DNA of 64,000 nt. Origin: Parapontixanthobacter aurantiacus. Its GTDB lineage: Bacteria; Pseudomonadota; Alphaproteobacteria; Sphingomonadales; Sphingomonadaceae. The notes below the pieces were generated by a model, which saw only the letters and a list, made by a program, of their open reading frames with translations, did not search any database and was not told the origin of the DNA. This document shows positions 45,534 through 48,076 of the stretch, one piece after another (the stretch's first letter is position 1; the number at the start of each line of letters is the position of its first letter). The position numbers and the translations under genes are program-made. The stretch spans positions 1,196,001-1,260,000 of the forward strand of contig NZ_WTYW01000001.1 of NCBI RefSeq assembly GCF_009827635.1, in the 5' to 3' direction.

Positions 45534-46800
<1,267 letters not shown>

Positions 46801-46802
46801 CC

Positions 46803-46831
46803 CGTCATCCCGGCGCAGGCCGGGATCCAGT
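46803..46831 (+). repeat. left 29-bp terminal inverted repeat (REP-like)
   Basis: A 29-base sequence starting CGTCATCCCGGCGCAGG is identical to the reverse complement of 47137-47165. Internally it forms a stem ATCCCGGC/GCCGGGAT with loop GCAG. It starts two bases after the mdh stop. Confidence 0.9.
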
Positions 46832-46845
46832 CGAACAAAGAATAA

Positions 46846-47136
46846 ATGGAGAAACGCGGATACGTCTACATCATGGCCAGCAAGCGGAACGGTACGCTCT
46901 ATATTGGGGTGACCAGCAACTTGGCGGCTCGTGTTTGGCAGCACAAACAAGGCGATATTGAAGGATTTGCCACCAAGTACGGCTGCAAGATGCTCGTATG
47001 GTTCGAAGTCTTTGATCGGATTGACCAAGCGATCATCCGCGAAAAGCAAATGAAAGAATGGCGACGCGTGTGGAAATTGCGCGTCATCGAAGAACTAAAT
47101 CCAGACTGGGACGATCTGTTCGAGTCGATATGTTGA
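46846..47136 (+). CDS. stand-alone GIY-YIG nuclease family protein
   Basis: A 96-residue protein that is almost entirely one GIY-YIG domain. The core is [20 protein letters not shown] (the two tyrosine-containing strands), followed by LAARVWQHK and the helical [21 protein letters not shown] with the likely metal-ligand Glu. It ends [12 protein letters not shown]. The stop codon directly touches the right inverted repeat, so ORF and repeat are arranged as one unit. Proteins of this size are multi-copy in many alphaproteobacteria. The function, for example in REP mobility or repair, is unproven. Confidence 0.9.
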
Positions 47137-47165
47137 ACTGGATCCCGGCCTGCGCCGGGATGACG
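47137..47165 (-). repeat. right 29-bp terminal inverted repeat (REP-like)
   Basis: This is the exact reverse complement of 46803-46831. It begins right after the GIY-YIG stop codon and ends 20 bases before the sucD ATG. Confidence 0.9.
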
Positions 47166-47185
47166 ACGAAGGGATAGCGAGCAAA

Positions 47186-48076
<891 letters not shown>

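Follow-up and report, generated by a model that had tools for sequence, protein, structure and literature searches.

A 96-codon GIY-YIG nuclease gene lying between mdh and sucD in Parapontixanthobacter aurantiacus probably belongs to a family of units in which a short Ssn-type GIY-YIG protein recognises the hairpin of a cognate CGTC-type REP and its gene is carried between two REPs whose tags point outward. The gene stands in the window, by which we mean the whole 64,000-nucleotide stretch analysed here (contig NZ_WTYW01000001.1, positions 1,196,001 to 1,260,000), and coordinates below are those of the window. Relatives hold near-identical dispersed copies, unrelated wider flanks, and empty sites, as expected of a mobile unit at the level of the family. 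Together with these copies and sites, we observe directly the anatomy of the unit, the pairing of gene and REPs, the tracking of protein clade by REP type, deletions that share a junction, and purifying selection. A mobile GIY-YIG/REP unit, as proposed in the initial annotation, is thus well supported for the family by dispersed copies, deletion forms, and empty sites, but not for the window copy, which is best taken for a long-standing resident, retained by selection, from a mobile family. The evidence for a replicating unit and the link of this GIY-YIG family to CGTC REPs are new here, and no mobile GIY-YIG/REP unit is named in the titles or abstract openings listed by a literature search.

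Anatomy of the unit and its nuclease

The left REP (46803–46831, forward strand) is of the CGTC type and consists of tag CGTC, stem ATCCCGGC, loop GCAG, stem GCCGGGAT, and tail CCAGT. The right REP (47137–47165, reverse strand) is its exact reverse complement across 29 bp, so that the earlier description of perfect 29-bp inverted repeats, each a palindrome with an 8-bp stem (ATCCCGGC/GCCGGGAT) and a 4-base loop, is exact to the base. With its CGTC tag, 8-bp stem, 4-base loop, and CCA tail, the window REP conforms to the definition of the CGTC super-family, which allows stems of 8–9 and loops of 4–5. The ORF (46846–47136, forward strand, 96 aa) begins 14 bp past the left repeat, and the first base of the right repeat follows its stop codon directly, in agreement with the coordinates first given; its assignment rests on the ORF call, Pfam, invariant residues, predicted fold, and dN/dS. 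Upstream, mdh (malate dehydrogenase, 45838–46800, forward strand) ends two bases before the left repeat, and downstream lies sucD (succinate-CoA ligase alpha, 47186–48076, forward strand). NCBIfam identifies the neighbours as malate dehydrogenase, succinate-CoA ligase alpha, and 2-oxoglutarate dehydrogenase E1 with its succinyltransferase. The G+C content of the GIY-YIG ORF is 49.8%, versus 62.4% for mdh and 63.6% for sucD.

The Pfam GIY-YIG match scores 58.9 bits against a cut-off of 22.6, and residues Y8, Y19, G21, R29, H33, E66, and N85 are invariant in all 26 aligned sequences; we take Y8, Y19/G21, R29, H33, E66, and N85 to be the expected catalytic positions of GIY-YIG nucleases. An AF2 model with pLDDT 94.3 has the UPF0213 structure 1zg2 as its best PDB match (E 8.8e-4) and Slx1 as the next (E 0.02), indicating that the window protein has a predicted GIY-YIG fold. 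A sequence search of solved structures with the window protein found none, and NCBIfam, PHROG, and PADLOC (defence) gave no family match at E 0.001. The gene is under purifying selection: dN/dS against the window sequence is 0.065, 0.075, 0.128, and 0.130 in the four of nine comparisons that are computable, dS being saturated in the other five, and ranges from 0.038 to 0.104 in four pairs among relatives. These low ratios indicate that the gene is kept for its protein. Phage cargo was rejected as an origin: a set of 50,697 phage records yielded nothing at E 1e-5, and no homologue was confirmed on viral contigs in a scan that finds only close relatives.

Pairing of GIY-YIG genes with CGTC REPs

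GIY-YIG genes elsewhere also have flanking repeats. The sample comprised 78 distinct genes, the window's own included, from 79 loci after removal of a duplicate (L059). A CGTC-type REP with its tag outward stands on both sides of 28 of the 78 genes, on the upstream side of 40, and on the downstream side of 30. Random positions in the same loci (200 draws) have two-sided REPs 0.00 times on average, and control ORFs of at least 150 aa have them in 1 of 71 cases, which rules out chance pairing. In 23 of 30 cases no more than about 5 bp separate the stop codon from the downstream REP; the listed offsets (up to 8) run 3 above the true distance as judged by the window's own row. Opposite-facing REPs occur on both sides of 6 of the 78 genes, two of which (L032 and L046) have opposite-facing ones alone. 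Under a rule free of the tag, applied to 109 loci, hairpins are two-sided at 43 and one-sided at 27, a few of all these hairpins being due to chance, and they are absent at 39, some of which do have REPs by the CGTC-type rule.

Stem, loop, and tail of the REP vary between lineages and track the protein clade. REP and protein distances are correlated over 54 loci (Mantel rho 0.55, p 0.0005), these being the 70 with a hairpin minus seven judged not to be CGTC-type and minus 10 near-duplicates, with L030 in both lists. Three multi-copy genomes contribute 13 loci; at 11 of these, the REP bears more resemblance to the one paired with the nearest protein from a different genome than it does, on average, to those at the remaining loci of its own genome. 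REP counts, taken with a pattern of one sequence type only, correlate with counts of GIY-YIG matches in 298 genomes of the family (Spearman 0.53) and in 94 genomes, one per genus (0.49). Fewer than four REPs are present in 94 of 222 genomes with a GIY-YIG match, and at least four in 9 of 76 genomes without one, four of these nine holding at least 10.

Dispersed copies and deletion derivatives in relatives

In genome G070, nine copies are dispersed, alike over the unit and unlike over the wider flanks apart from short extra repeats beside some of them. Five are full-length (94.6–98.0% identical, one frameshifted), two share a small internal deletion (99.3% mutually identical), and two share another, larger one (95.0%). 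The expectation of multiple copies with constant spacing between ORF and repeat is borne out in some genomes, such as G070, but not in that of the window, which has one copy. Likeness among the G070 copies (L205–L218) reaches, by eye, some 20–50 bp past both REPs, and the true ends of the unit in this subfamily may lie outside the REPs. G293 also has five copies of this sort, and stops or frameshifts occur in some of them. At two of the G070 copy sites the flanks could be matched only in part in its congener G138, so these establish no empty site.

Sinorhizobium sp. C101 has two full copies at different sites and nine dispersed N-terminal or inner fragments. Eight of nine fragments examined (eight from C101 and one from S. 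meliloti Ak57) share one deletion junction; the common deletion spans about codon 28 to the last seven codons, and some fragments carry a further deletion. Empty sites, which the initial annotation had suggested looking for, are seen as gaps in Ak57 opposite C101 copies and as mdh–sucD gaps without the gene in relatives' genomes. Between matching flanks, C101 has 838 bp and Ak57 36 bp at the site of the second full copy, 515 bp and 2 bp at the site of one derivative, and 564 bp and 170 bp at a third site. The unit was not seen at the second-full-copy site in the more distant Shinella. The 36 bp of Ak57 are a REP-like palindrome, which is compatible with insertion by homing at a REP as well as with a deletion that left a scar. 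No target-site duplications were evident by eye at the G070 copies or the Sinorhizobium sites.

The spread of full and internally deleted copies in relatives places the REPs at or near the ends of the unit. In the mechanism that we favour, the GIY-YIG protein would recognise the hairpin of its own CGTC-type REP and cut it as single-stranded DNA, and the cut would drive copying, in a homing-like manner, into or beside existing REPs. Units of relatives would thereby have spread within genomes in full and internally deleted form, gene-less REP pairs look like non-autonomous forms, and the window copy would descend from such an insertion and have long resided in the mdh–sucD gap since. Against this explanation stand the situation of the window copy, which is single in its genome and shares its gap with the first 19 of 49 relatives, the G070 unit that extends past its REPs, the 36-bp gap of Ak57 that could be a deletion scar, the 39 of 109 loci without a hairpin, the 4 of 76 genomes with at least 10 REPs and no GIY-YIG match, the opposite-facing REPs at 6 of 78 genes, and the lack of any target-site duplication evident by eye. 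The chances are close to even that one short GIY-YIG nuclease, working on REP hairpins in single-stranded form, suffices to copy a REP-bounded gene, which would be a new class of mobile element with CGTC REPs, the Neisseria dRS3, and rhizobial palindromic repeats as its miniature non-autonomous progeny. The family offers a testable candidate enzyme for the spread of CGTC REPs, having a known fold, a lineage-specific substrate, and natural full and deleted copies, and one enzyme family could account for repeats that were reported independently of each other from Neisseria, alphaproteobacteria, and rhizobia.

Dispersed palindromic repeats in Sinorhizobium (L238–L248) contain remnants of GIY-YIG genes, and some rhizobial palindromic repeats look like deletion derivatives of GIY-YIG/REP units.

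The window copy and the mdh–sucD gap

The exact 24-base REP core occurs at two places in the host genome, both flanking the window ORF, and the GIY-YIG gene of the window type is present in one copy; the check on copy number thus speaks against mobility of the window copy. Four more places match the core with 3 mismatches and are degenerate REPs, two of them paired 14 bp apart with their tags facing outward; a further count, likewise allowing up to 3 mismatches, gives 7 matches. The host genome has one more Pfam GIY-YIG match, inside a 684-aa frame.

Of 115 genomes with sucD, 110 were surveyed; 17 of these 110 loci, lacking the mdh end in the stretch, were set aside, leaving 93 mdh–sucD neighbours. 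One of the 17 (G096) has a GIY-YIG gene ahead of sucD. A whole or partial GIY-YIG gene occupies the gap in 5 of the 93 (G000, G111, G029, G085, and G074), its frame being intact in G111, interrupted by one inner stop in G029, broken in G085, and reduced to a fragment in G074. The gap measures at most 150 bp in 38 of the 93 genomes, and it holds a gene-less REP pair in G106 (by the REP finder) and in G109 (by eye). The mdh–sucD gap is a variable spot.

Among 49 relatives, chosen like all loci in this comparison by likeness to the window protein, the first 19 by E-value (the two that follow tie with the 19th) all occupy the mdh–sucD gap, in other genera, namely Novosphingobium, Sphingomonas, Erythrobacter, Porphyrobacter, Citromicrobium, Sphingobium, and further Sphingomonadaceae; one of them (L025) has 1.4 kb extra before sucD. 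At the remaining 30 loci no mdh, sucD, sucA, or sucB was seen. A family search gave 29 further loci. Eight are in the mdh–sucD gap, including one whose sequence is that of a locus among the 49 and one with an additional 1.3 kb; four separate sucD from sucA, and nine follow closely on sucB. The earlier statement that the unit interrupted the mdh/suc operon after the mdh stop is right as to position, but the interruption is unproven, since the first 19 of 49 relatives share the gap. For the same reason, and because the genome holds a single copy, no recent jump of the window copy is demonstrated, and the claim of its mobility is not upheld.

At 10 of 20 loci examined (L090, L092, L093, L096, L104, L105, L108, L116, L123, and L125), the gap corresponding to the 46801–47185 region of the window holds an unrelated same-strand ORF of about 140–200 aa. 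GIY-YIG genes also stand elsewhere in this TCA operon, in the gap between sucD and sucA or past sucB (L064, L066–L071, L073, L074, L076, L077, L081, L085, and L200), and G167 has two units within one operon.

Alternative explanations

A homologue of the window protein in the gonococcus is 55% identical to it and is presumably the GIY-YIG nuclease Ssn. The gonococcal gene is flanked on either side by repeats of the CGTCATTCCCGC type, and those closest to it have the reverse orientation relative to the window's. In a 2025 paper, Ssn is reportedly a site-specific single-strand nuclease that acts on the Neisseria repeat (NTS/dRS3), the work concerning cutting of single-stranded DNA and transformation. 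Judged by homology and by cognate repeats near the gene, the window protein appears to belong with the Ssn family, and an Ssn-like, site-specific cleavage of single-stranded repeat DNA is its predicted activity. The two systems are alike in their homologous proteins of similar size and in the cognate palindromic repeats around the gene. They differ in that Ssn is said to have been studied for single-strand cutting and transformation, whereas here gene and repeats appear to form a replicating unit with deletion derivatives.

The possibility has to be weighed that the protein is an Ssn-type nuclease serving its host, one that tunes DNA uptake or recombination by cutting repeat-bearing single strands, with the repeats as its substrate rather than as transposon ends. 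Purifying selection, retention of the gene in the same gap by several genera, the position of the Neisseria homologue among CGTC repeats, and the role in transformation that Ssn is said to have are all consistent with such a function. It does not account for near-identical full and deleted units that are dispersed in genomes, or for empty sites, and the gene is patchy at the mdh–sucD gap (5 of 93), with two broken genes and one fragment among the five. We regard a host-serving nuclease as a serious alternative, though one that falls well short of an even chance.

Alternatively, the protein may be a site-specific homing endonuclease that targets the mdh–sucD junction itself, consistent with the gap that the window copy shares with the first 19 of 49 relatives. 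Phylogeny also lends this some support: the window groups with Erythrobacteraceae and Citromicrobium in the mdh+sucD tree (100), versus Novosphingobium and S. palustris in the GIY tree (97/87), and the GIY distances follow those of mdh/sucD weakly (correlation 0.22, against 0.73 for mdh with sucD). However, a single clade of the window GIY with its Erythrobacteraceae/Citromicrobium host group is not rejected by the AU test (p 0.121), on which phylogenetic proof of transfer into the window fails, and relatives at many other sites retain the link to REPs. Homing to the junction is on balance unlikely. The window copy is best taken as an old resident of the gap, with a history of either patchy loss or same-gap transfer.

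The REPs might instead be hairpins for stability or processing of the mdh–suc mRNA, with the nuclease gene as a passenger. In the predicted RNA fold (z −6.6) the two repeats do pair and enclose the ORF, as had been anticipated for the polycistronic message, and the gene-less REP pairs of G106 and G109 lie in the same gap; however, the same fold is expected of any perfect inverted repeat, the REPs go with the protein clade from one genome to the next, and at unrelated sites they again border these genes. A function confined to the operon's mRNA is accordingly a doubtful account, and distinctly unlikely to be the right one. It is highly improbable that a RAYT-type tyrosine transposase moved the REPs and that the nuclease gene was caught up by chance. 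RAYTs are hypothesised to mobilise GTAG REPs (Di Nocera et al. 2013, PMC3733652), but gene–REP pairing is far above chance, and RAYT-driven spread is disfavoured by the lack of Y1_Tnp, the only transposase type searched for, in all five genomes or records (C101 being covered by its 3.5-Mb record only); among 14 named control genomes, the same search found it in 5. The host genome has no match to Y1_Tnp, the tyrosine transposase of the RAYT REPtron.

Relation to known repeat systems

The unit carried between outward-tagged REPs resembles the CGTC REPs of the 2013 survey (Di Nocera et al., PMC3733652), which are described there as having a CGTC tag, a stem of 8–9, a loop of 4–5, and a CCA tail and as forming inverted pairs; the window REP shares the tag, with an 8-bp stem, a 4-base loop, the CCA tail, and inverted pairing. 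The survey found no dedicated transposase for CGTC REPs and leaves the spreading enzyme open, whereas the present data link a gene family to these repeats. It puts many REP families at 20–100 units or even less; the copies in the host genome are few. With REPtrons and REPINs (a RAYT gene with REPs), the unit has in common an enzyme gene between inverted REPs, and gene-less REP pairs as possible miniature forms, but it has a GIY-YIG nuclease in place of the tyrosine (HUH) transposase. The dispersed, internally deleted copies of relatives share a junction, as MITEs derived from autonomous parents would, although the GIY-YIG/REP unit lacks a classical transposase and target duplication was not seen. 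We file the Ssn-type gene with its CGTC REPs as a REPtron-like replicating unit.

As a minor observation on the records used, four gonococcal and Sinorhizobium "plasmid" entries of 2.2–3.7 Mb (NZ_CP119142.1, NZ_CP119140.1, CP090106.1, and NZ_CP104135.1) look like mislabelled chromosomes.
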